The position numbers and the translations under genes are program-made. From contig MGTD01000026.1 of the NCBI GenBank assembly GCA_001799285.1, forward strand, positions 1-36,273: a DNA stretch of 36,273 bases, read 5' to 3'. The notes beneath the pieces were generated by a model that saw nothing but the letters and a program-made list of their open reading frames with translations, did no database searches and had not been told where the DNA came from. This document shows, in pieces, positions 3,293 through 16,595 of this stretch (its first letter is position 1; every line of letters starts with the position of its first letter). The stretch is from Deltaproteobacteria bacterium RIFOXYD12_FULL_56_24. Its GTDB lineage: Bacteria > Desulfobacterota > Desulfobulbia > Desulfobulbales > Desulfurivibrionaceae.

Positions 3293-4387
3293 ATGAAATT
3301 TGTTGACGAATACCGCGATCCGGCGCTGGCCGGAGGTCTGCTTGAAGAGATCCGCCAGACCGTGACCCGCCCCTGGGTGATCATGGAGATCTGCGGGGGG
3401 CATACCCATGCCATCATGAAAAACGGGCTTGATCAACTGCTGCCCGCCCAGGTGGAGCTGGTGCACGGGCCGGGTTGCCCGGTTTGCGTGACTCCGGTGG
3501 AGACCATTGATCGGGCCGTGGCTATCGCTGCCCGGCCTGAGGTGATTTTTGCCAGCTTCGGCGACATGCTCCGGGTGCCGGGCAGCGTCTCCAGCCTCTT
3601 TATGGCAAAATCCGCCGGGGCTGATGTGCGCATGGTTTATTCGCCGCTCGAAGCCGTGGCCCTGGCCCGGCAGAACCCGGAGCGGGAGGTGGTTTTTCTG
3701 GCGGTTGGTTTTGAGACAACGGCGCCGGGCAATGGTATGGCCCTGCTTGCGGCCCGGCGCGAGGGGCTGACTAATTTCAGCCTGCTGGCCAGTCATGTCC
3801 TGGTGCCGCCCGCCATTCGGGCCTTGCTCTCCTCGCCCGGCAACCGGGTGCAGGGCTATCTGGCGCCGGGGCATGTCTGCACGGTCATGGGTTGGCGGGA
3901 ATACGAGCCGCTGGCCGAGCAATTTCGGGTGCCCATCGTTGTTACCGGTTTCGAGCCGGTTGATATTCTCGCCGGTCTGCTAATGGTACTCCGTCAGCTT
4001 GAGGCGGGTCGCTATGTCGTAGAAAATCAGTATGGCCGCTCGGTGAGTCGGGAAGGCAACCTGGCAGCGCAACGGGTTTTGGCCGAGGTATTCGAGGTGC
4101 GTGACCGCCCCTGGCGGGGGATCGGGGTTTTGCCCGCCAGCGGTCTGGTGATCCGGGAGCATCTCGCTGCCTATGACGCCGAGCGGAAGTTTGCCGTTAC
4201 CACCATCAAGGTGCAGGAATCGACGAAGTGCAAGAGCGGCAGCGTGTTGCAGGGCATGCTCAAGCCCGATGGCTGTCCTGCCTTTGGCCGGGAATGCACC
4301 CCGGAACATCCCCTGGGGGCGACCATGGTCTCGGGCGAGGGTGCTTGCGCCGCTTACTATACTTACCAAAGGATATCTCATGCATAA
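3293..4387 (+). CDS. hypD: Hydrogenase maturation protein HypD
   Basis: HypD is the iron-sulfur scaffold on which, with HypC, the Fe(CN)2CO unit of [NiFe]-hydrogenase is assembled in the cytoplasm. The conserved signatures are all present: ICGGHTHA with C34, GPGCPVC with C62 and C65, and a C-terminal cysteine-rich region ([29 protein letters not shown]) that binds a [4Fe-4S] cluster. At 364 residues it has normal length. I chose ATG 3293 because [10 protein letters not shown] matches the usual N-terminus; a TTG eight codons upstream is less likely. Its end overlaps hypE by 8 bp. No hypA, hypB, hypC, hypF or hydrogenase structural gene is visible; the accessory genes lie immediately upstream instead. 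Confidence 0.97.
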
Positions 4388-5435
4388 TGTGAATCCGGAA
4401 GATTTCAGCTGCCCCCTGCCCATCATGGAATATGAGACCATTCAACTGGCGCACGGCAGCGGCGGGCGTCTCTCCGCCGAGCTGGTCAGCCGGTTTTTTC
4501 TCCCCCGCTTCGGCAATGAAACCCTGAACCGGCTGGAGGATCAGGCGGTGGTCGATTTTTCTTCGGGCCGTTTGGCCCTGACCACCGACTCCTTTGTGGT
4601 TGATCCCCTGTTCTTCCCCGGCGGCGACATCGGCGATCTGGCGATCAACGGGACGGTGAACGATGTCTGCATGAGCGGCGCCACCCCGCTTTATCTGGCC
4701 GCCGCCTTCATTCTCGAAGAGGGACTGCCCCTGGCCACTCTGCACCGGGTGCTGCTCTCCATGGAAAAGGCGGCAAGAGCCGCCGGGGTGCAAATCGTGA
4801 CCGGGGACACCAAGGTGGTAAACCGGGGCTGTTGCGACAAACTCTTCATCACCACCACCGGGGTGGGTCGAGTACCGGAGGGGGTTAACATCTCCGCCGC
4901 CAACCTAAGGCCGGGAGACAGGCTCATTGTTTCGGGAACCATTGCTGATCATGGCATGGCGATCCTGACCAGCCGGGAGGGGCTTTCCTTTCATTCCCGA
5001 GTGACCAGCGACACCGCCTCCCTTAACGGTCTGGTCGAGGCGATGCTGCTGGCGACCAGCGATGTTCACGCCATGCGCGACCCAACCAGGGGCGGGCTTG
5101 CCACCACGCTCAACGAGTTTGCCGCAGCCTCCCGGATCGGCATCCTGCTTGACGAGGCGGCCATTCCGGTCAGGCCCGAGGTGCGCGGGGCCTGCAGCGT
5201 GCTGGGGATCGATCCGCTGTATGTCGCCAACGAGGGCAAGCTGGTGGCCGCTGTCCCGGCGGCGGTTGCGGCCAAGGTTCTGGCCGGGATGCGGCGCCAT
5301 CCTCTGGGGCGAGAGGCGGCGATCATCGGCGAGGTTGTTGCGGAAAACCCTGGGATGGTGGCCATGCGCACCGCGTTTGGCGCCACCCGCATCGTGGACA
5401 TGCCGGTGGGTGAGCAGCTGCCGAGAATCTGCTGA
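4380..5435 (+). CDS. hypE: Hydrogenase maturation protein HypE
   Basis: HypE dehydrates the thiocarbamate formed on its own C-terminal cysteine to thiocyanate, supplying cyanide ligands for the [NiFe] site through HypCD. The protein is 351 residues, has the PurM/AIRS-like ATP-binding fold, starts its core with AHGSGGR, and contains [20 protein letters not shown] and [14 protein letters not shown]. It ends in PRIC, so the essential terminal cysteine is intact. ATG 4380 overlaps the hypD stop, consistent with translational coupling. A strong rho-independent terminator about 45 bp downstream shows hypE is the last gene of its transcript. Longer upstream extensions of the frame lie inside hypD and were rejected. 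Confidence 0.97.
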
Positions 5436-5510: not shown

Positions 5511-5607
5511 CCTGAAAATAATATATTTGTGGTATTCTGGCCGCTGACTGGAGTCGAACAGCGATTCCGGTTTATTGCCTTTCTGTTGCAAACCCCGGGG
5601 AATTGTT

Positions 5608-8600
5608 GTGGCTTTTCCTTTTTTCTCCATAAAGAGACTTCCTGTCTTGCCGCAGTCCTTGGCGGCCTTGACACTTTTTTTTCTTTTAGGCCTGCCTTTT
5701 TTTGTCGGGACCGGGCTGCTGGCTGTCCCGGACATTCCCCCTTTTAGTTTTTACTCAGCTCTTCACAGCGCGGTTGAAATTTTCACGGTGGCGGTGGCCA
5801 TCCTTGTTTTTGCCATGGGTTTTCATCTCCTGGAAAAAAAACGGCCTACCGCCCTGTTTGTTTTGGCCAGCGCCTTTCTCGGCGTGGCCCTGCTTGATTT
5901 TCTCCATTTGATCTCCCACTCCGGCCTGCCGGATTTTTTTACCACCAATACGCCGCACAAGGCCACTATCCTCTGGCTGGCCGCCCGCCTGCTCGCCGCC
6001 GGAGCTCTGCTTGCCTGGGCGTTGCTGCAGGTTATCCAGCCGGTGAAGGCGGTGTCGCGTTATCTGCTCTTGAGCGCCAGCCTTGCCTACACGTTTTTTT
6101 GTGGTTATGTGGGTGTTTTTTATCCTGAGTGGGTTCCGGCCACCTTTGTGCCGGGTCAGGGCCTGACTCCGTTCAAAATCGGCATGGAGTGGCTGGTCAT
6201 TTTGCTGCATGCCGCGACTCTGGTTGTGCTGGCAGGGTGCCGCCATCGTTATTCCCGGGGCTGGTTATCCTTTCTTGCCCCGGCCCTGTTGCTGCTCATT
6301 GCCAGTGAACTGTTTTTCACCCTGTATGTGCAGGTGAACGACACCATTAACCTTTTGGGACATGTCTACAGGCTTTTTGCCTATCTGCTGATCTATCGGG
6401 CCATATTTATCGAAGGCGTGCGTCAGCCGTATATTCGCCGGGAAGAAGCCTTGCGGTTAATCGAATATGGCAGGCAGGAGTGGCGGCAAACCTTTGACGC
6501 TATTTCCGATCCCATCTTCATGCACGATACGGACTTTCGGATCACCCTGTGCAACCAGGCATATGCCGGAGCAGTCGGCCTGCCTTTACACCGGATCATC
6601 GGTCGTCCGTATTATGAAGTGTTGCCCCGGAGCGACGGCCCGCACCTCGAATGCCGGGAGGCACTGGCTCTGGGTGAGGAAAGAGAAGCGGATCTGCTGC
6701 CGGCCGACGAAGGAGTTATTTATAATATTCGTTTCATCCCGGTCAGGTATGAGGCAACAGGCAATTTTCATTTCCTGCTTATCATGCGCGACATCACGGA
6801 GCGGAAGCGGGCCGAGGAAGCCCTGCGCTTTCAGCTCAGTTTTCAGAAACTGGTGGCCGATCTTTCCGCCGATTTTGTCACCACCTCCCGGGAAAGAACC
6901 GATCTCGCCGTTAACCATGCCCTTGCCCTCTGCGCCGATTTTTTTCAGGCGGACCGCAGCTATGTTTTTCTCTTTGCCGATTACCGCCACACCATGAGCA
7001 ACACCTACGAATACTGCGCCGAAGGCATTGCCTCGCATATTGAGGCGATTCAGGAGGTGCCCCTCGCCGCCTTTCCCTGGTTTTCCAGAAAGATTCTCAT
7101 GCAGGATGTGGTGCATGTGCCGACGTTGGCTATCCTGCCGCCGGAGGCTGTGGCGGAAAAGACGGAATTTGCCCGGCAGGACATCCAGTCTCTGATCTGT
7201 CTTCCCCTGGTGGGAGATGGCCACCTGCTCGGCTTTTTCGGCCTGGACGCGGTCAGAAAAAGCACGACCTGGAGCAACGACCAGATCGCCTTGCTTGCGG
7301 TGGTGGCCGACATTATCGCCGTAGCTTTGGCAAGGGCTAAGACCGAACTGCAGCTCGAACAAAATACGGCCAGGCTGGAAAACGCCCAGCGTATAGCCCA
7401 TATCGGCAATTGGGATTGGGATATCCTTAACAGGACCCTTGTCTGGTCGGACGAGATTTATCGGATTTTCGGCGTTGCCCCGCAGGAATTTGCCGCCAGC
7501 TATGAGGCATTTCTGGGTTACGTGCTTCCCTCTGACCGGCCAATGGTGGAGCAGGCGGTGCAGGAAGCCCTGGACGAGAATCAGCCTTACGACATCGAGC
7601 ATCGGGTCCAGCGGCCCGACGGTGGGCTGCGCTGGGTGCGTGAACATGCCGAGATTATCAGGGATGAAACAGGCCGGCCTCTGCGCATGTCCGGCACTGT
7701 TCAGGATATCACCGAACGCAAATCTTTGGAGGAGCAGATTCTCCAGGCCCGGAAGATGGAGGCAGTCGGGGTGCTGGCCGGCGGGATCGCCCATGATTTC
7801 AACAATATTCTTACTCCCATCATGATGCATACCCAGATGGTGCTGATGGATACTCCCGCCGGCACTTCCGCCCATCACAGCCTGGAACAGGTGCAGAAAG
7901 CGGCGGAGCGCGCCAGGGATCTGGTCCGCCAGATTCTCGATTTCAGCCGCAAGGGGAAGTACGAGCCGCAGCCCATGAAAATAGGGCCGGTCATCAAGGA
8001 GGGGCTGAAATTTCTGCGTTCCACCATTCCTATGCACATTGAGCTCGCGAGCAAAATATTTACCGGCCGTGATCTGGTGCGGGCCGACCCCACCCAGATC
8101 CTGCAGGTGGTCATGAACCTGACCATCAACGCAGCCCAGGCCATGCATGAAAAAGGCGGCAGAATCGAAATTACTCTGAGCGAGCAGGATGAAGAAGGCT
8201 GGCTTCCCCCTCCCGGCTTGCCTTTGGGGGAGAAATATCTGAAGATGGTGGTCAGCGACACGGGCGTCGGCATCCCCTCGGAGATACTGCCCAGAATATT
8301 CGAACCCTATTTTACCACCAAGGGCAAAGGGGAGGGCACGGGGATGGGGCTTGCCGTGGTGCATGGGATGGTGGAAAAACACGGCGGTGCTATTACGGTT
8401 AAAAGCGAACCAGGCAAGGGTACGGATTTCGAGATATTTTTACCGTTGGTTGCCGGGGAAGCCGCCACTATTTCTGATTTCAACCAGCCTTTGCCCGGCG
8501 GTCGGGAACGGATTCTCCTCGTAGACGATGACCAGGCGGTGTTGGCGGCTGTGGCGCCGGCTCTTGCCCGGCTCGGCTACCGGCTGACCACGAAAACAGA

Positions 8601-8913
8601 CAGCCTTGAGGCCTTGGCTGCCTTTCGGGCCGATCCTTCCTGTTTTGATCTGGTTATTACCGATCAGACCATGCCGGGGATTAACGGTTCGGCCATGGCG
8701 TCGGAAATGCTGCGGCTGCGGCCGGAGTTGCCAGTCATCCTCTGCACCGGTTTCAGTGGAAAAATCAACGAGGAAATGGTAAGAACCCTGGGAATCGCAG
8801 CCTTGGTCGCCAAACCTTTCGGGATGGAGGATATTGTCCAGGTCATCCGCAAGGTGCTTGGTAAAGAAAGAGTAAGAGATCCGGAGAGCATGAAATGGCC
8901 AGAATCCTGGTAA
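5608..8913 (+). CDS. MASE3-PAS-GAF-PAS hybrid sensor histidine kinase with receiver
   Basis: This membrane sensor kinase has about 1,100 residues. The N-terminal 270 residues form a multi-pass MASE3 sensory domain ([34 protein letters not shown]). A PAS domain (about 285-400) begins [17 protein letters not shown] domain follows (about 410-590), then a PAS_3 domain (GNWDWDI to DITERK, about 595-710). The kinase core has the phospho-acceptor in [11 protein letters not shown] (H729), followed by an HATPase with DTGVGIP and [11 protein letters not shown]. The C-terminal receiver has VITDQTMPG (D1019) and a KPF lysine. GTG 5608 is preferred because GGGGAA lies five bases upstream; TTG 5575 lacks a ribosome site. 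The 3' end overlaps the next gene, an NtrC-type regulator, by 19 bp, so they are probably cognate partners. The ligand is unknown. Confidence 0.93.
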
Positions 8914-10298
8914 TCGATGACGACACCATGATCTGCGAAACCATGGCAACCCTGTTTCGTTCCCGGGGTTATGAAACGGACTATGCCTTAAGGATACGGG
9001 ACGGTAAGAAGCTGCTGGCCGAGAAATCTTATGATCTTGTCTTTCTCGATGTGAACCTGCCTGATGGCGACGGTCTTCAGGAGGTGGCAGCCATCCGGCA
9101 GTCAGCCTCATCTCCGGAGGTGGTGATCATCACCGGCGAGGGAAGCGCCGATGGCGCGGAACTGGCCATCCGCAGCGGCGCCTGGGACTATGTTCCCAAG
9201 CCTCTTTCGGTGCAGCAGGTATTGTTGCCGTTGGCCCGCGCTCTTCAGTTTCGGGAGGAAAAAGAGTCAGCCCGCGTGGTATCCGTGCCTGTCAGCCGGG
9301 AAGAGATTATCGGCAACAGCCCGGCAATCAACCGCTGTCTGGCCCTGATGGGCAGGGCCGCCGAAACCGAGGCCGGGGTGTTGATCACCGGTGAGACCGG
9401 CACCGGCAAGGAACTTTTTGCCCGGGCCATCCACGAAAACAGCGCCAGGGTCGGCGGTAATTTTGTGGTGGTCGATTGCGCCGCCCTGCCGCCGACTCTG
9501 GTGGAGAGCGTTCTCTTCGGCTACGAAAAGGGAGCCTTCACCGGGGCGGAGCAGGCACGGGAAGGTTTGATTCGCCAGGCGCATGGCGGCACCCTGTTCC
9601 TCGATGAGGTGGGAGAATTACCCCTGGACATCCAAAAGGCCTTTCTCCGGGTTCTTCAGGAACACCGTTTCCGTCCTGTGGGCAGCAGTCGCGAGCAGGA
9701 AAGCGATTTTCGGCTGGTGGTCGCCACCAACCGGGATCTTGACAAGATGGCGGCAAAAGGAGAATTCAGGAAAGATCTGCTTTTTCGTCTCCGGGTTTTT
9801 ACTCTGGATTTGCCGCCTCTCAGGGAAAGACGCGAGGATGTTCCGGATCTGGCCATTTTCCGGTTGTTCAGGTTGTGCAAGCGGCAGAGGCTGCCCATGA
9901 AAGGGTTATGTCCGAGCTTTTTGAAGGTGCTTAAGCAACACGACTGGCCGGGCAACGTGCGGGAACTTTTCAATGCCGTGGACACGGCCTTTGCCCACGG
10001 ACGGGATGGTTCGACTCTTTTTGCCATGCACCTGCCCGCCGATCTCCGGGTTGCGGCAAAACTTAAAGAATCCGGGCTCCTGGAGAATCCGCGACAAAAC
10101 CAGCCAGCCGGCATCAATGTCACTCCGCTGGCCCAAATAAGGCAGGTAAGGGATGAGGCGGTCAGTTCTGCAGAACAGGACTATCTCGCCACCTTGCTCC
10201 GGCTTTCGGCCGGGGATATGAAAAAAGCCGCCGAAACCGCAGGGCTTTCCCGTTCTCAGCTTTATCGATTGCTCCAAAAACACGGCATTAATTCCTGA
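8895..10298 (+). CDS. NtrC-family sigma-54-dependent response regulator
   Basis: This 467-residue activator has three domains. The receiver has the acidic triad IDDD and phospho-acceptor D52 in FLDVNLPDGDG. The AAA+ domain has Walker A GETGTGKE (166-173), the sigma-54 contact loop GAFTGA (213-218), Walker B FLDEVGEL (about 235-242), and arginine-finger-type motifs (FRKDLLFRLRVF). The Fis-type helix-turn-helix at the C-terminus reads GDMKKAAETAGLSRSQLYRLL. The intact GAFTGA loop indicates genuine sigma-54 remodelling activity. It overlaps the MASE3 kinase gene by 19 bp, and GGAGAG precedes its ATG. A consensus sigma-54 promoter lies about 190 bp downstream of its stop, before the receiver-like and GGDEF-EAL genes. 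The inference is that the kinase phosphorylates this protein and that it activates the next operon. Confidence 0.95.
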   Translation: MARILVIDDDTMICETMATLFRSRGYETDYALRIRDGKKLLAEKSYDLVFLDVNLPDGDGLQEVAAIRQSASSPEVVIITGEGSADGAELAIRSGAWDYVPKPLSVQQVLLPLARALQFREEKESARVVSVPVSREEIIGNSPAINRCLALMGRAAETEAGVLITGETGTGKELFARAIHENSARVGGNFVVVDCAALPPTLVESVLFGYEKGAFTGAEQAREGLIRQAHGGTLFLDEVGELPLDIQKAFLRVLQEHRFRPVGSSREQESDFRLVVATNRDLDKMAAKGEFRKDLLFRLRVFTLDLPPLRERREDVPDLAIFRLFRLCKRQRLPMKGLCPSFLKVLKQHDWPGNVRELFNAVDTAFAHGRDGSTLFAMHLPADLRVAAKLKESGLLENPRQNQPAGINVTPLAQIRQVRDEAVSSAEQDYLATLLRLSAGDMKKAAETAGLSRSQLYRLLQKHGINS

Positions 10299-10323
10299 AA
10301 CTCTTTGAGGTGCCGGCCGCGAT

Positions 10324-10373
10324 AAAAATGTCGCGTGTAATGCGAAAATTTTGAGCATCAGGCGCGACTTTTT
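10324..10373. promoter_or_regulatory. Inverted repeat: terminator or upstream activator site
   Basis: AAAAATGTCGCG (10324-10335) is opposed by CGCGACTTTTT (10363-10373), an 11-bp match with one bulged base and a spacer of about 27 bp. It follows the stop of the sigma-54 activator gene by 25 bp. It could act as a weak terminator for that gene. Alternatively, at roughly 160 bp upstream of the predicted sigma-54 start site, it is at the right distance and symmetry for an enhancer bound by the activator dimer. The sequence does not decide between the two. Confidence 0.45.
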
Positions 10374-10485
10374 CACCTCCTTTTCTGGTTTATTCCTCAA
10401 GTCGACTTTTTGCCATCTTCATTATTCATTGTTTTATCGATCATTTTCATTGTTTCTAGTTTTTGCCTTCTTTGTAACCTTCTGC

Positions 10486-10501
10486 TGGCACATCCTTTGC
10501 T
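10486..10501 (+). promoter_or_regulatory. Sigma-54 (-24/-12) promoter
   Basis: The sequence TGGCAC-ATCCT-TTGCT matches the sigma-54 consensus TGGCAC-N5-TTGCW exactly, with the GG and GC doublets ten bases apart as required. Transcription would begin near 10512, leaving a leader of about 64 nt before the ATG at 10576. It lies in a 277-bp gap between the gene for a GAFTGA-bearing activator and the receiver-like/GGDEF-EAL gene pair. No other equally good match was noticed in the window. Confidence 0.8.
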
Positions 10502-10575
10502 GTATCGCAAGGGTCAGCATGCCGTTGCATGTTCACGGCATACTGTGCCCATACAGTTAAACGGGAGAGGCCGCT

Positions 10576-10965
10576 ATGCGAGTTATTGTCTACAGCAGGG
10601 AGAAAAAGGCGGCACTGGATCTGGTGGAGGCCATCCACTCGCTGGTTCCGGCCACAAAGGTGGAAAGCTGCGCCAGTTTTCCCCTTTGCGAGGCGATGCT
10701 GGTCGAGACCGGAACAGGTGGGGTTGTGATGGTTGCCCTGGTCGCCGACCGGGAGGAGCTTGCCAGCCTTTTTCTTTTTCGGGAGCGGTTTATGGACATC
10801 CAGTTGATTCTGATTCTTCCCGAGGACAGCGCGGCAACCATCTGTCTGGGCCATCGACTTCAGCCGCGTTTTGTCGGATTTCGCGACAATGGTTTTCGTG
10901 ACGTGGCGGCGGTGGCGATGCGGCTGCTGGGCCGGATGGATTATCCATGCCAATTGTGCAATTGA
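10576..10965 (+). CDS. Small receiver-like protein of unknown function
   Basis: This 129-residue protein is not assigned to a named family. Its alternation of hydrophobic strands and helices resembles a CheY-like fold: RVIVYS as strand 1, VVMVALVA as a central strand, IQLILILPED, then RFVGFRD. It lacks the usual DD pair after strand 1, and no clear phospho-acceptor Asp in a D-x-x-M/L-P context is seen, so it could be a pseudo-receiver. A strong ribosome site (GGGAGAGG) precedes the ATG. It is the first gene after the sigma-54 promoter and ends 20 bp before the GGDEF-EAL gene, so the two are probably co-transcribed. A partner or regulatory role for that cyclic-di-GMP enzyme is a guess from position only. 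Confidence 0.7.
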   Translation: MRVIVYSREKKAALDLVEAIHSLVPATKVESCASFPLCEAMLVETGTGGVVMVALVADREELASLFLFRERFMDIQLILILPEDSAATICLGHRLQPRFVGFRDNGFRDVAAVAMRLLGRMDYPCQLCN

Positions 10966-10985
10966 CCGGGAGAAAGGCATCTGTT

Positions 10986-13508
10986 ATGCGCCAAAACATA
11001 GACCTGAAAGCCGGCAGCCTTTCTTATGCAACACTGGGGCTGGGCTTTGTTGCCTCCCTGCTGCCTTTTCTTGCCCTGATCGGGGTGGTGGACCTGCACG
11101 CTTTACTGCCGGCCAGCCTTGTCGTTTTTTTCCCTCCCTTTCATGTAGCGGTGGAGATGTTCACCGTGCTGGTGGCCATCCTGATTTTTTCCACCGGCTT
11201 TCACCTCCCCAGCGAACAGCGCCCCCTCTCCACCTTGCTGATGGCTGCGGCCTTCCTCTCTGTAGGATTGCTGGATTTTTTTCATCTGCTTTCCTATCCT
11301 GGCATGGCCGACTTTCTGAGCATCAACACCATGCGCAAGACCATCATCCTTTGGCTGGCGGCCAGATTTTTATGCGCAGTGTCCCTGTTGACCTATGTTC
11401 TGCTTCCCGCCTTTTCCGGCAGGGGCCGGTGGAACAGGCCGCTGCTTCTGTCCGGCAGTCTGGCTTACGCCCTGTTTTTCGGTTACGTTGCCATCTGGCA
11501 TGCCGAGTGGTTTCCGGCCACCTTTAGCGAGAGCGCGGAGTCTGCGCTCTTTAAGCTTAAGGCGGAATGGTTGTTGATCGGCCTTTATTTCAGCACCCTT
11601 GGGGTTATTGCCGTCCGGCATTCCGACCGGGATCTGACCATGGTCAGGATGCTGGCCCCGGCTTTGTTGCTGCTGATCGCCGGAGAGCTATGCTCCACCA
11701 TCTATGCCACCCCAACTGATACGGTCAGCATGCTGGCGCATGTTTACAAGGCGCTGGCCTACCTGCTGCTCTACCGGGAGATGTTTGTCGAAAGCGTCCG
11801 CCTGCCCCTTCTTCGGCTTGATCTGACCCGCCGTGCCGTGGCCCAGGCCAAGAAGGAATGGGAGAATACCTTCGATTCCATCTCCGATCTGGTCTTTCTC
11901 CATGATGCCCAATTCCTGGTCATCCGCTGCAACCAAGCTTATGTCGAGGCCTCCGGCCTGCCTTTGGAAGAAATCATCGGTCGACCTTACTTTGAGGTCT
12001 TCCCTAAAGGAGACGGGCCGCAGGAGGCCTGCCTCGACGCGATCAGCAGCAACCAGGAGCGCGCCCAGGAAATATTCTTGCCGGAGCTGGGCCGTTACTA
12101 CCAGATCCATTTTATCCTGGTACACAGTGATGATGGCAACTATCTCCACTCCCTGCACATCATGGCGGACATCACCGAGCGCAAGCGGCAGGAGGAGCGG
12201 ATACTCCATCAGGCCAACCATGACGCCCTCACCAACCTTCCCAACCGGACCCTGTTGCAGGATCGCCTGTCCCAAGCCGTTGCCGCAGCAGAGCGAAATG
12301 GCCTGGGTGTTGCGGTCATGCTTCTGGATCTGGATAACTTCAAGGTAATTAATAACAGTTTCGGACACGCGGTTGGGGACGAACTCCTGGTGGAAGCGGT
12401 CCGCCGCCTCTCCAGCGCGCTTCGGGGCGACGATACAGTGGCCAGGCTGGGGGGGGACGAATTTGTCATTGTTCTTCGCGATGTCAAACGTCCTGAAAAG
12501 GTGGCCCGGGTGGTGGAAAAGGTGCTTGGCATCTTTGTCGCGCCCTTTATGGTGGGAGACGGCCACGAGGTTTTTTCCGGCGGCAGCCTGGGGGTGGCCA
12601 TGTATCCCGAGGATGGCCGGGACGAGCAGACCCTGCTCCGCCATGCTGATTTGGCCATGTACCAGGCCAAACAGGCAGGGCGGGGAACCTATGTTTTTTT
12701 TACCGATCAGCTCGATCAGCGCCTCCACGAGGATTTTCGCCTGCACGGCAAACTTAAGCATGCCCTGGCTGATAATGCCCTGGCCCTCCATTACCAGCCC
12801 CAGATCGAGTTGGCGAGCGGGAAAATGAGCGGGGTCGAGGCATTGCTCCGCTGGCATGATCCGGAACTGGGCAATGTCTCTCCGGATCGTTTCATCCCGA
12901 TCGCCGAGGCCACCGGCCTGATTCTTCCCCTGGGCGACTGGGTGCTTGCCACCGCCTGCCGTCAGATTGCGGCCTGGGAAATGGCCGGCACCCCGACCGT
13001 GGTGGCGGTCAATCTCTCGGCCCAGCAGTTCCGCCAACACAATCTGGTGGAAAAAATCGCGGCCGCCCTGGCTGAAACCGGCGCTTCCGCCCGGCTTCTC
13101 GAGCTGGAAATCACCGAGACCGCGGCCATGGAAAACGTCGAGCTTGCCGTCCGCCAGCTTGTCGGCCTTACCTCTCTGGGCTTGAAGGTGGCCCTTGATG
13201 ATTTCGGCACCGGCTATTCCTCCCTGGCCTACCTCAAGGCAATGCCCATTGCCAAGCTAAAGATCGACCGCAGCTTCATTAAGGATATAGGCAAGGACGG
13301 GGATGACGAGGTGATTGTCCAAGCGGTGATCGGCCTGGCCAGAAATCTGAATCTTGGTCTGGTGGCCGAGGGGGTCGAGACCGATATCCAGCTGGATTTT
13401 CTCCGGGAACACGGCTGCGGGGTGGTGCAGGGGTGGATTTACGCCAAAGCCATGCCAGCGGCGGAGCTGGAAAACGGTTTTTTGCGGATGGACAATCCCA
13501 AAAACTAA
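10986..13508 (+). CDS. MASE3-PAS-GGDEF-EAL cyclic-di-GMP enzyme
   Basis: This 840-residue bifunctional-type protein has an N-terminal MASE3 membrane sensor (about 15-270). A PAS domain (about 285-395) contains TFDSISDLVFLHD. The diguanylate cyclase domain has an intact GGDEF at 489-493 and an upstream RGDD that fits the RxxD product-inhibition site. The EAL phosphodiesterase domain has EAL at 618-620. It also has the catalytic elements NLSAQQF, LEITETA, DDFGTGYSSLAYL, KIDRSF, AEGVE and VQGW. Both enzyme sites look intact. ATG 10986 is preceded by GGGAGAAAGG with eight-base spacing; an earlier ATG at 10947 overlaps the previous gene. The MASE3-PAS half closely resembles that of the kinase at 5608. 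Expression is probably sigma-54-driven from 10486. Confidence 0.94.
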   Translation: MRQNIDLKAGSLSYATLGLGFVASLLPFLALIGVVDLHALLPASLVVFFPPFHVAVEMFTVLVAILIFSTGFHLPSEQRPLSTLLMAAAFLSVGLLDFFHLLSYPGMADFLSINTMRKTIILWLAARFLCAVSLLTYVLLPAFSGRGRWNRPLLLSGSLAYALFFGYVAIWHAEWFPATFSESAESALFKLKAEWLLIGLYFSTLGVIAVRHSDRDLTMVRMLAPALLLLIAGELCSTIYATPTDTVSMLAHVYKALAYLLLYREMFVESVRLPLLRLDLTRRAVAQAKKEWENTFDSISDLVFLHDAQFLVIRCNQAYVEASGLPLEEIIGRPYFEVFPKGDGPQEACLDAISSNQERAQEIFLPELGRYYQIHFILVHSDDGNYLHSLHIMADITERKRQEERILHQANHDALTNLPNRTLLQDRLSQAVAAAERNGLGVAVMLLDLDNFKVINNSFGHAVGDELLVEAVRRLSSALRGDDTVARLGGDEFVIVLRDVKRPEKVARVVEKVLGIFVAPFMVGDGHEVFSGGSLGVAMYPEDGRDEQTLLRHADLAMYQAKQAGRGTYVFFTDQLDQRLHEDFRLHGKLKHALADNALALHYQPQIELASGKMSGVEALLRWHDPELGNVSPDRFIPIAEATGLILPLGDWVLATACRQIAAWEMAGTPTVVAVNLSAQQFRQHNLVEKIAAALAETGASARLLELEITETAAMENVELAVRQLVGLTSLGLKVALDDFGTGYSSLAYLKAMPIAKLKIDRSFIKDIGKDGDDEVIVQAVIGLARNLNLGLVAEGVETDIQLDFLREHGCGVVQGWIYAKAMPAAELENGFLRMDNPKN

Positions 13509-13622: not shown

Positions 13623-16595
13623 ATGAATATCCTTGCTGGCAAGCGGGATCGGTCCGGCGATCCCCTTAAACTTAAAAACTGGATCATCCTGCCGGTGGCC
13701 GTGGTCTTGCTAAGCAGCATGGCCCTGGGGATGTTTTTCAAATACCGTCAGAGCCTGGAACAACCGCGCCGGGAAATGGGACAGCTCATGGTCAGGGGGC
13801 ATTCCGCCTGGCAGCGTCTGGTGACCGCCGAGACCAGGGTGCTGCGAACCCACCTGGCTTATCTGGCGGCTGATTCCGCCCTGATTGCGGCCTGGAAAAA
13901 TCGCGACCTGGCCCGGCTCACCGACCTGGCCGTTCCCCTGGCGGACCGCCTGCGGCAGCAACAAAAAATCACTCATTTCTATTTCGTCGCCCCGGACCGG
14001 AAGGTAGTACTTCGGGCCCATCTGCCCTCACGGCGGGGTGACCGGATCGACCGGCACACCATGCTGACCGCGGAACGAACCGGCGAAGAGTCCTGGGGCT
14101 TGGAACTCGGCCCTCTGGGCACTTTTACTCTCCGGGTCGTGCGGCCCTGGCGGGTGGAAGGGGAACTGCTCGGCTATCTGGAACTGGGCATGGAGGTAGA
14201 GTACTTTACCCGGGAACTGGCCACCGCCCTCGGGGTGGAACTGCTGGCTGTGGTGCGCAAGGAGTTCATCACCAGAGACCAGTTCGAAGCTGGTCGGGCA
14301 TTGTTCGGGTTTATCGGGAAATGGAGCGATTATCCGGAATTCGTGGTGCTCCACCAGACCATGCCCGAGTTGCCTTCGGAGCTGATGGCCAGCCTCAGCC
14401 GGGGCCATGATCCCCTGGCCGCCATGGCCGCGAAACCGGTGCGCCGGGGAGAGCGCTGGTGGTGGTGCGGTGTGCTGCATCAGCCCGATGCGGCCGGGTG
14501 TGATGTGGCGGACCTGATTCTGCTTCTGGACGCGAGCGGGGAAGTATGGGTGGCCCGGCGTGAACTTTTTCTGGAAATCGGCCTGGGCCTGCTTCTTTCA
14601 GCCGGACTGCTCACCCTGCTCTGGGTTGTGACCGATCGGATCGAAGGGCAGTTGCGGGCAAGCTTCGCCGCGCTGCGGGAACGGGAGGAGCATCTGGCCA
14701 CCACCCTCAATTCCATCGGTGATGCGGTGATCGTTACCGATGCCGGCAGTCTGGTGACCCGGATGAACCCGGTGGCCGAACGGCTCACCGGCTGGTCATG
14801 GCATGAAGCCATGGGCCGGCCCTTGACCGAGATCTTCCGGATCGTCAATGCCATTACCCGCCATTCGGTCGATGATCCGGTGGCCCGGGTGCTGGCCACC
14901 GGCGAATTGATGGGGTTGGCCAATCACACCACTCTCTTGGGCCGGGCCGGGGCTGAATACCAGATCGCCGACAGCGCCGCCCCAATTCGAGACTCGCATG
15001 GCCGTATCGGAGGGGTGATCCTGGTTTTTCGAGATGTGAGCGAGGAATACCGATCGCGGGCGGAAACCGAACGCATCCGGGCCAGCCTGGAAAATGCTCA
15101 GCGGATTGGGCAAATGGGCAATTGGGAATGGGAGATCGTCGACAACAAACTTTTCTGGTCCGATGAAATCTACCGGATTTTCGGCGTCGAACCCCGGCAG
15201 TTCGGAGCCAGTTACGAGGCCTTTCTGGGCTATGTTTATCCTGACGACCGGGCTGCAGTGCAAAAGGCGGTGGCCGAGTCCATGGCGGATGATAAGCCTT
15301 ACAGTATTGAGCATCGCCTGATCAGGCCCAACGGCGAAGTGCGCTGGGTTCATGAACAGGCGGAACTCATCCGGGACGAAAACGGCTGTCCGCTGCGGAT
15401 GAACGGCACCGTGCAGGATATCAGTGAACACAAGACCTTGGAGGAACAACTGCTCCAGGCCCGCAAGATGGAATCCATCGGGGTGCTGGCCGGCGGCATT
15501 GCCCACGACTTCAACAATATCCTCACTCCTATCATGATGCGCAGCCAGATGACGATGCTGGAGGCCCCGCCCGACAGTGTCATCCATCAGAACATGGCCG
15601 AAGTTTGCCGGGCAGCGGAGCGGGCCAAGGATCTGATCCGTCAGATCCTCGATTTCAGTCGCCGGGACCGCCATGAGTTGATGCCCATGCAGTTGGGGCC
15701 GGTGTTGAAAGAGGCGGTTAAATTGCTTCGCTCTACGATCCCACCCATGATCAGCCTGGAAACCAGGCTGGATGCCAGGGAAGATACGGTGCTGGCCGAT
15801 CCGACCCAGATCCTGCAGATTATCCTTAATCTGGTGGTGAATGCGACCCATGCCATCCCGGAAAGCGGCCAAATCACAATAGCTTTGAGCGATGCGGGTC
15901 CGGCAGAGCTGCCGCCGGAGTTCAGCCGAAAAATGTCGCCGAACCATTGCTATCTTAAACTTGCGGTGAGTGATACCGGTGAAGGAATCGCCCCAGAGAA
16001 TCTACCCAGGATTTTTGAGCCGTTTTTCACCACCAAGGCCAGGGGCCAAGGCACCGGGATGGGGCTGGCGGTGGTCCACGGGCTCGTGGAAAACCACGGC
16101 GGAACGATTACGGTACAGAGCGAACCGGGCCGGGGCACCACCTTTACCGTATTTTTGCCCAAGGCTACCGCCGAGGCCGTTACCGAAGCGGCGGCTTTCT
16201 GCCTCTCTCTTCCCGGCGGCAGTGAGCGGATCATGCTGGTGGAGGATGATCCGGCTATTCTGGCCGCCGGCGTATTAATCCTGACGCAGCTCGGCTATCG
16301 GGTCACCGGCCTGACTGGCGGCGCCGAGGCCTTGGCCTCCTTCACAGATTCGCCGGCGGACTTTGATCTTATGATCACCGATTATGAAATTCCGGAGATG
16401 ACCGGAGTTGTCCTGGCCAAGGAGGTCAGAAAAATCAGGCAGGAATTACCGGTTATTCTCTGTACTGGCTTCAGTGAAAAAATGAACGAGGAAAAAGCCG
16501 AAGAAATGGGGTTTAGCGCTTTTCTGACAAAACCCTTTGCCCTTGCCGAGTTCACCGCCACCATTCGCCGAGTGCTTGATCCAGGCAGGAAATAG
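13623..16595 (+). CDS. dCache-PAS-PAS hybrid sensor histidine kinase with receiver
   Basis: This 990-residue kinase has one transmembrane helix near residues 20-40, a periplasmic sensor region to about 305, and a second helix at about 312-335. The sensor contains HFYFVAPDRKVVLRAHLPSR and TLRVVRPW followed by GYLELGMEVEYF, which fits the dCache_3-type double Cache fold for extracellular ligands. Two PAS domains follow: TLNSIGDAVIVTDA (about 360-480) and GNWEWEI (about 495-605). The kinase core has [11 protein letters not shown] with H628 and an HATPase with [11 protein letters not shown]. The receiver has LMITDYEIPEMTG (D920). From the second PAS onward it is very similar to the kinase at 5608, implying duplication with a swapped sensor. 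It starts 114 bp after the GGDEF-EAL gene, with GAGGAG just before the ATG. Confidence 0.93.
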   Translation: MNILAGKRDRSGDPLKLKNWIILPVAVVLLSSMALGMFFKYRQSLEQPRREMGQLMVRGHSAWQRLVTAETRVLRTHLAYLAADSALIAAWKNRDLARLTDLAVPLADRLRQQQKITHFYFVAPDRKVVLRAHLPSRRGDRIDRHTMLTAERTGEESWGLELGPLGTFTLRVVRPWRVEGELLGYLELGMEVEYFTRELATALGVELLAVVRKEFITRDQFEAGRALFGFIGKWSDYPEFVVLHQTMPELPSELMASLSRGHDPLAAMAAKPVRRGERWWWCGVLHQPDAAGCDVADLILLLDASGEVWVARRELFLEIGLGLLLSAGLLTLLWVVTDRIEGQLRASFAALREREEHLATTLNSIGDAVIVTDAGSLVTRMNPVAERLTGWSWHEAMGRPLTEIFRIVNAITRHSVDDPVARVLATGELMGLANHTTLLGRAGAEYQIADSAAPIRDSHGRIGGVILVFRDVSEEYRSRAETERIRASLENAQRIGQMGNWEWEIVDNKLFWSDEIYRIFGVEPRQFGASYEAFLGYVYPDDRAAVQKAVAESMADDKPYSIEHRLIRPNGEVRWVHEQAELIRDENGCPLRMNGTVQDISEHKTLEEQLLQARKMESIGVLAGGIAHDFNNILTPIMMRSQMTMLEAPPDSVIHQNMAEVCRAAERAKDLIRQILDFSRRDRHELMPMQLGPVLKEAVKLLRSTIPPMISLETRLDAREDTVLADPTQILQIILNLVVNATHAIPESGQITIALSDAGPAELPPEFSRKMSPNHCYLKLAVSDTGEGIAPENLPRIFEPFFTTKARGQGTGMGLAVVHGLVENHGGTITVQSEPGRGTTFTVFLPKATAEAVTEAAAFCLSLPGGSERIMLVEDDPAILAAGVLILTQLGYRVTGLTGGAEALASFTDSPADFDLMITDYEIPEMTGVVLAKEVRKIRQELPVILCTGFSEKMNEEKAEEMGFSAFLTKPFALAEFTATIRRVLDPGRK

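Follow-up and report, generated by a model that had tools for sequence, protein, structure and literature searches.

The locus and its counterpart in the genus

The window, by which we mean the whole stretch of DNA that was analysed (36,273 nucleotides), carries on its forward strand a MASE3 kinase, an activator, a promoter, a small protein and a MASE3-GGDEF-EAL enzyme in this order. The features are as follows.

5575 to 8913, + strand: MASE3-PAS-GAF-PAS hybrid histidine kinase with a C-terminal receiver (Pfam MASE3 E 4e-59, GAF, PAS, HisKA, HATPase_c, Response_reg)
8895 to 10298, + strand: NtrC-type sigma-54 activator (Pfam Response_reg, Sigma54_activat E 5e-66, HTH_8 E 3e-5)
10328 to 10347, + strand: dyad 1, TGTCGC-N7-GCGA, candidate activator-binding site (palindrome in G016 and conserved spacing to the -24 box)
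10352 to 10368, + strand: second candidate activator site with half-site GCGAC, TGAGCATCAGGCGCGAC (18 of 20 columns at 10349-10368 equal to G016)
10486 to 10501, + strand: sigma-54 promoter, -24/-12 TGGCAC-N5-TTGCT (motif match, genome count, conservation in G016, family-wide controls)
10576 to 10965, + strand: small protein P0001 with a predicted receiver fold (AlphaFold, structure matches, column counts; no Pfam match)
10986 to 13508, + strand: MASE3-PAS-GGDEF-EAL protein (Pfam MASE3, PAS_4, GGDEF, EAL)

The stop of the kinase gene (8913) overlaps the start of the activator gene (8895), and the kinase is likely the partner of this activator. For the last gene the longest open reading frame starts at 10947, and the ATG at 10986, which has a better ribosome site (GGGAGAAAGG), is more likely the start. 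The MASE3-GGDEF-EAL enzyme that the earlier note had placed downstream is borne out both by its Pfam domains and by its motifs, namely GGDEF, RGDD (the RxxD site) five residues before GGDEF, EAL, NLS and DDFGTG, these being the catalytic or site motifs of such enzymes. MASE3-linked GGDEF-EAL proteins are a known kind, and the present one shares their domains and catalytic motifs; what differs here is that a kinase of the same locus has a related MASE3 domain, the two MASE3 regions being 47.5% identical over 242 residues. Named relatives of the enzyme in a collection of genome contigs, at 14 loci, match it at most from residue 306 onward and were set aside.

Among 17 genomes in the genus, one other genome, G016, has the locus. 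There the order is kinase, regulator, dyad and promoter, small protein (69% identity), an MCP and a MASE3-PAS-GGDEF-EAL protein, and the MCP inserted between the small gene and the GGDEF-EAL gene carries a CZB domain. Besides G000, a close ortholog of the activator within the genus is found in G016 only, where it is 79% identical.

Several neighbouring genes were seen in passing. In the window a second hybrid kinase (dCache_3, PAS, HK, REC) lies at 13623-16595, about 115 bp after the GGDEF-EAL gene; it is similar to the first kinase in its kinase half, and it is absent at that place in G016. The frames that come directly behind the GGDEF-EAL gene of G016 (L058, reverse complement, 10943-12387) resemble, by eye, a disrupted group II intron reverse transcriptase. 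On the other side, 140 bp separate the kinase frame from the end of a gene at 4173-5435 in the window, which by eye is hypE-like and would serve in hydrogenase maturation.

The sigma-54 promoter and the sites upstream of it

Sigma-54 promoters have the consensus TGGCAC-N5-TTGCW, and the GG and GC elements at 10486-10501 stand at exactly its spacing. In fact TGGCACATCCTTTGCT is the sole match in the window at up to one mismatch, lies on the + strand and is exact, as the earlier note had claimed; the chance figure for the window (mean 1.57) is for up to one mismatch and says nothing on an exact match. In the genome of 3.04 Mb the exact pattern has 10 matches versus 1 for the reversed control. 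Four of the other nine exact sites precede genes for FlgI, a flagellar rod/hook-type protein, a nitrogenase-component-1-type protein and an ammonium transporter, all of which we take to be classic sigma-54 targets, and a fair share of the exact matches in this genome would accordingly seem to be genuine promoters. The remaining five precede Dus, polysaccharide-synthesis/MerR, TauE and rhodanese proteins and one protein without a match, where the gene behind each of the nine sites is the longest frame beginning within 400 bp after it. RpoN, on which such promoters depend, is encoded in this genome (E 5e-61). Moreover, the promoter is retained in G016 as TGGTAC-N5-TTGCT (TGGTACAGCCCTTGCT), with one change from the window, and a transcript start is predicted near 10512.

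It might be argued that the -24/-12 sequence is accidental and that the operon is read from another promoter, as the reversed control also has one exact match in a genome of 3 Mb. We regard this as highly improbable. A chance promoter was rejected on the genome-wide reversed control together with the conservation in G016, the pattern of sigma-54 sites extends to the whole small-protein family as described below, and the stretch from 10200 to 11050 holds but one weak sigma-70-like match, on the other strand. An RNA element in the 5' leader was also considered and rejected, for the inverted repeat at 10517-10543 is not kept in G016; the leader folds no better than its shuffles (z 0.63), and Rfam lists nothing for the whole window at the gathering score. 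As a side observation, two of the other exact sigma-54 sites of this genome, at the loci L010 and L007, precede a rhodanese-repeat protein and a TauE-type exporter, perhaps a sulfur-related target set.

The gene just upstream of the promoter encodes a receiver, a sigma-54 AAA domain and a Fis-type HTH with the GAFTGA motif intact, so that the adjoining activator announced by the earlier note is confirmed by Pfam and by the motif. The dyad claimed about 160 bp upstream of the start is real as well and is kept in G016, although it is imperfect in the window and better taken as two sites. Specifically, TGTCGC-N7-GCGA occupies 10329-10345 with its centre at about -174 from the start predicted near 10512, and a further half-site GCGAC at 10364-10368 follows the first GCGA by 22 bp, a distance of roughly two helical turns such as tandem activator sites would show. 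The block at 10324-10373 therefore reads better as two putative tandem activator sites than as one long dyad. In G016 the dyad has perfect 9-bp arms, ATTGTCGCA-N5-TGCGACAAT, and it stands 158 bp from the -24 box versus 157 bp in the window. Between the window and G016 conservation is among the highest in the steps from 10319 to 10369, with 14-18 of 20 columns identical per step; the other steps have 2-13 of 20, save 14 at 10378 and 15 at 10428.

The bare dyad pattern does not stand out genome-wide, having 4 matches versus 2 for the reversed pattern, and a wider regulon for the window's dyad was set aside. Inside the small gene (10871-10889, TTGTCGGATTTCGCGACAA) there is also a stretch resembling the activator dyad, its spacer being shorter by two bases, and G016 has a similar stretch at the same place. 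This may be a coincidence, since it covers codons of the conserved PRF...D motif of the protein.

Compared with NtrC-family sigma-54 systems in general, the window has the same REC-AAA(GAFTGA)-Fis HTH activator, upstream dyads, -24/-12 promoter and RpoN. No structural difference was seen, the target operon and the dyad sequence being what is particular to this locus, and neither promoter nor regulator departs from its known kind. What is new is the small-protein family together with its recurrent genetic address.

The small-protein family, its genetic address and its predicted fold

With a single-sequence search (E up to 1e-6) the small protein is found in 26 of 257 genomes of the order, and with a profile search (E up to 1e-5) the family is found in 71 of the 257. 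In an even sample of the phylum it occurs in 54 of 395 genomes, three of these 54 being from the order, and within the genus in 2 of 17 genomes only. The family profiles from inside and outside the order match each other with 100% probability over 129 columns. Against Pfam and NCBIfam, 25 members gave scattered weak matches (best E 0.012 and 0.0039), and the best family match of 39 other members had E 0.0072, none being convincing. The predicted product of 10576-10965 thereby founds a family without a convincing Pfam or NCBIfam match. A phage family was rejected, as PHROGs gave no match for the two members tried, and so was a solved relative by sequence, the best hit (E 0.1) being a designed protein.

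The genes of the family often stand behind a switch of this kind. Taking start codons picked by alignment and scoring weights in the style of Barrios 1999, a sigma-54-like site with a score of at least 9 lies within 300 bp of the start in 71 of 86 members of the order, versus 3 for the reversed and 5 for the reverse-complement control, and at a score of at least 11 the count is 55 of 86 versus 0 and 0. In the phylum set outside the order the corresponding counts are 30 of 40 versus 2 and 0, and 18 of 40 versus 1 and 0. Altogether 101 of 126 members have such a site at score 9, versus 26 of 272 control genes, which are other labelled genes of the same loci (12/272 at score 11); within these controls the NtrC-type genes reach score 9 in 15 of 87. 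In addition, 81 of the 101 sites are located 40-100 nt before the start codon.

In 59 of 86 cases in the order and 21 of 40 in the phylum set (80/126 in total), the 1.5 kb upstream contain the end of an NtrC-type gene on the same strand. The coupling of small gene, sigma-54 site and NtrC-type gene is not universal, since a score of 9 is not reached in 15 of 86 and 10 of 40 members, and in 27 of 86 and 19 of 40, some of them at contig ends, no NtrC-type gene was found within 1.5 kb upstream. The 84 NtrC-type genes with a receiver, which are all those in the loci examined including the ones away from the family gene, comprise 60 with GAFTGA, 6 with GSFTGA and 18 with other variants or none. At L169 (G144), two copies of the small gene lie on one 19 kb stretch, with an NtrC-type gene downstream of one copy and upstream of the other.

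Upstream palindromes also accompany part of the family. In 19 of 124 members the pattern TGTnnAC-N3..5-GTnnACA is present within 500 bp upstream, whereas none of the 124 reversed sequences and none of the 265 control genes contains it; relative to the start, a copy lies at -179 to -254 in 18 of these members and at -453 in the remaining one. Inverted repeats with perfect arms of at least 7 are seen between regulator and promoter in 23 of 62 loci versus 5.6% of shuffles, which keep the base content in 30-base blocks and not the dinucleotides. One dyad common to the whole family was sought and not found, as the above pattern covers 19 of 124 members and the dyad of the window and G016 differs from it.

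These counts bear on whether the adjacent regulator is the one in use. The promoter may be real and yet be driven by another NtrC-type activator of the genome, the adjacency being incidental: the genome has five genes with E up to 1e-80 to the activator, itself counted, and adjacency is no proof of regulation. In Desulfovibrio vulgaris, according to the available part of PMC3333781, there are 22 NtrC-family regulators, and among the 21 with targets 8 and 7 bound their own or adjacent operons, while for 6 of the 21 mapped regulators the targets needed other routes. For the present locus we consider another activator quite unlikely, because the order of activator, promoter and small gene recurs with the frequencies given above (59/86 and 21/40), and because the dyad directly follows the activator gene, G016 retaining both the dyad and its spacing to the promoter.

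As to the fold, AlphaFold gave a pLDDT of 91.6 with the alignment from the order and 92.4 with that of phylum members outside the order, the two alignments sharing no member, and both models show beta-alpha five times. Foldseek alone, at E up to 0.001, gave three matches, namely CENP-M and two mycobacterial complex I entries, with pilus-assembly CheY-like and receiver domains ranked behind those. In a second look by VIA-align, where many rows are tied, the best solved matches are receiver domains with Z 13.9 for the first model and Z 13.7 for the second, in both cases at 2.4 A over 115 residues. The small protein is thus predicted to have a receiver fold, and "receiver-like", as the earlier note called it, holds for the predicted fold and fails for the sequence and the phosphorylation residues. 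A true receiver was rejected by sequence: PF00072 is not among the families listed for the 25 members (E up to 1) or the 39 members (E up to 0.1), the hhalign probability of the family against the neighbouring NtrC receivers is 0.7%, and the residues of phosphorylation are missing. At the putative phosphoacceptor, residue 55, none of 122 members is acidic, residues 7 and 8 are acidic in 2% and 6%, Thr at 82 occurs in 3%, and Lys at 102 and 103 in 0% and 1%, with the active-site positions matched by the strand ends of the model, so that a shifted match would weaken this reading of absence. Just behind the putative phosphoacceptor, 14% of members have an acidic residue at 57 and 37% have one at 58. 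Because there is neither a Pfam receiver match by sequence nor a set of phosphorylation residues, the small protein is probably not a partner in a phospho-relay.

Conservation instead falls on Leu95 (92%), Pro97 (98%), Arg98 (91%), His93 (73%) and Lys/Arg116 (87%), columns that would map in the model to the alpha4-beta5-alpha5 part, through which receivers bind their partners. The loops might alternatively make the protein a ligand sensor, with beta4-alpha4 and beta5-alpha5 binding a metal or a small molecule instead of being phosphorylated, as acidic residues stand at columns 83, 104, 106 and 109 in 67%, 69%, 56% and 70% of members. Ligand-binding pseudo-receivers often use regions structurally unlike receivers, as described in the available part of PMC12632262. 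However, none of these four columns is invariant and no solved relative was found by sequence, and a ligand sensor is rather unlikely.

Pseudo-receivers are defined in that review, so far as its available part goes, as computationally recognised receivers without one or more of five residues; it names PF00072 and six minor families and raises the question of how such proteins are regulated (PMC12632262). The small protein shares the (beta-alpha)5 fold without the conserved active-site residues, as predicted here, and with regard to the definition it is recognised by the predicted fold only and not by a sequence family. It is unlike the pseudo-receivers treated there in having no match to PF00072 or the six families, and in being a stand-alone protein that heads sigma-54-type operons; PF06490, PF21155, PF21194, PF21695, PF21714 and PF22368 were unlisted for the 25 members at E up to 1 and for the 39 at E up to 0.1. 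In the parts available to us of the literature on pseudo-receivers, sigma-54 regulators and chemosensory operons, no description of the family was found.

Operon outputs and the proposed circuit

The genes behind the small gene vary from locus to locus while the small gene itself stays. The first downstream frame (at least 150 residues, within 1.3 kb) has in the order a CheW domain in 29 of 79 cases, an MCP signalling domain in 29 of 79 and a GGDEF domain in 2 of 79; in the phylum set it has MCP in 9 of 36, CheW in 5 of 36 and CheR in 1 of 36. Genes for CheW, MCP, CheA or CheR are present within 6 kb downstream at 59 of 79 loci of the order and 18 of 37 of the phylum set, hence at less than half of the loci outside the order, and this association is a count and not an enrichment over an unbiased background. 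At these loci 37 of 76 histidine-kinase genes are likewise followed by che genes within 6 kb, and many of those kinases sit directly before the family gene. A GGDEF gene within 6 kb downstream is seen at 5 of 79 and 0 of 37 loci, respectively.

The window belongs to the minority. No CheW, MCP or CheA gene is found within 6 kb downstream on its strand, the genome having 12 MCP and 5 CheW matches elsewhere, and the locus of G016, which is among the 59 of 79 with che genes, carries both outputs, MCP and GGDEF-EAL. The window thus seems to represent a rare cyclic-di-GMP form of a sensory operon that usually carries chemosensory genes. The "cyclic-di-GMP gene pair" of the earlier note accordingly describes this locus well, but it is atypical of the family, and in G016 an MCP intervenes. 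Its self-contained circuit fares similarly: the promoter, the adjacent activator, the upstream site and the gene order in G016 (apart from the inserted MCP) are supported by sequence, and the whole would more aptly be called a sensory operon under putative sigma-54 control, its output in this case being cyclic-di-GMP turnover.

From this anatomy, very probably the membrane sensor and the regulator switch on a small operon through the sigma-54 promoter. More specifically, a signal, presumably a ligand in the case of MASE3, would be sensed by the MASE3/PAS/GAF membrane kinase (5575-8913), leading to phosphorylation of the activator (8895-10298); the activator would occupy the tandem sites at 10328-10368, loop over about 120 bp to the sigma-54 RNA polymerase at 10486-10501, and spend ATP to open the promoter. 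The first product would be the small receiver-fold protein, probably not phosphorylatable on aspartate, and the second the MASE3-PAS-GGDEF-EAL enzyme, which would make or degrade cyclic-di-GMP. Given the related MASE3 domains of kinase and enzyme, the type of signal that induces the enzyme may also tune it. The chain of kinase, regulator, dyads, promoter and operon seems the best reading of the anatomy, with its steps inferred from established families. The small protein would act as an adaptor independent of phosphorylation, contacting receptors, kinases or enzymes made from its operon by its conserved alpha4-beta5-alpha5 side with the PRF motif, a role suggested by context and conservation. 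To the explanation as a whole, from kinase and activator through the sigma-54 operon to a small receiver-fold adaptor and a cyclic-di-GMP enzyme, we assign a probability of roughly 0.7.

The main rival to the adaptor concerns the same protein. It may be a feedback regulator that occupies the kinase or the activator, damping or sharpening the switch, and does not serve the downstream receptors or enzymes. Such a role would suit the first product of a switched operon, constant while the downstream genes vary, and receiver-fold proteins bind histidine kinases, which is established for true receivers. Against this, the small gene is also found in the above 27 of 86 and 19 of 40 cases without an NtrC-type gene within 1.5 kb upstream, some of these loci being cut by contig ends. 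A feedback role is possible yet doubtful in our judgement, and we retain the adaptor as the preferred reading.

Judged by its genetic surroundings, the small protein recurs across the phylum as a part of sensory operons of this sigma-54-switched kind. Links between NtrC-type regulators and chemosensory genes are known from Myxococcus Che3/CrdA, where the chemosensory system acts on the regulator; the loci of the present family resemble it in linking such a regulator with chemosensory genes, and differ in that here the regulator appears to switch the sensory operon on. In Geobacter sigma-54 promoters are predicted before some che clusters, so that some chemosensory operons are likewise predicted to be sigma-54-read, and the available part of that report mentions no receiver-fold leader gene or adjacent NtrC regulator (PMC2577667).

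Tentatively, and with more doubt than belief, we suggest that across the phylum these proteins form a new family of phosphorylation-blind adaptors, produced once a two-component system sets off a sigma-54 promoter, which couple this transcriptional switch to varied outputs, usually chemosensory and here the turnover of cyclic-di-GMP. If this is true, an adaptor kept while the output gene is swapped would be an interchangeable coupling part, one that links two-component transcription to chemosensory or second-messenger signalling. The window shows one operon of the kind in which cyclic-di-GMP takes the place of the usual chemosensory output. The family is large, compact and stand-alone, with a recurrent address behind an NtrC regulator and a sigma-54 promoter and before receptors, and thus makes a tractable set for guessing and testing the partner; the small gene can also serve as a marker for finding sigma-54-controlled sensory operons in the phylum.

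A further arrangement was observed at L095 (8384-13035), at L090 and in relatives, where the small gene is followed by a protein that has three CheW stretches in about 500 residues; at L095 this triple-CheW protein is followed in turn by a receptor that combines many PAS domains with an MCP domain.
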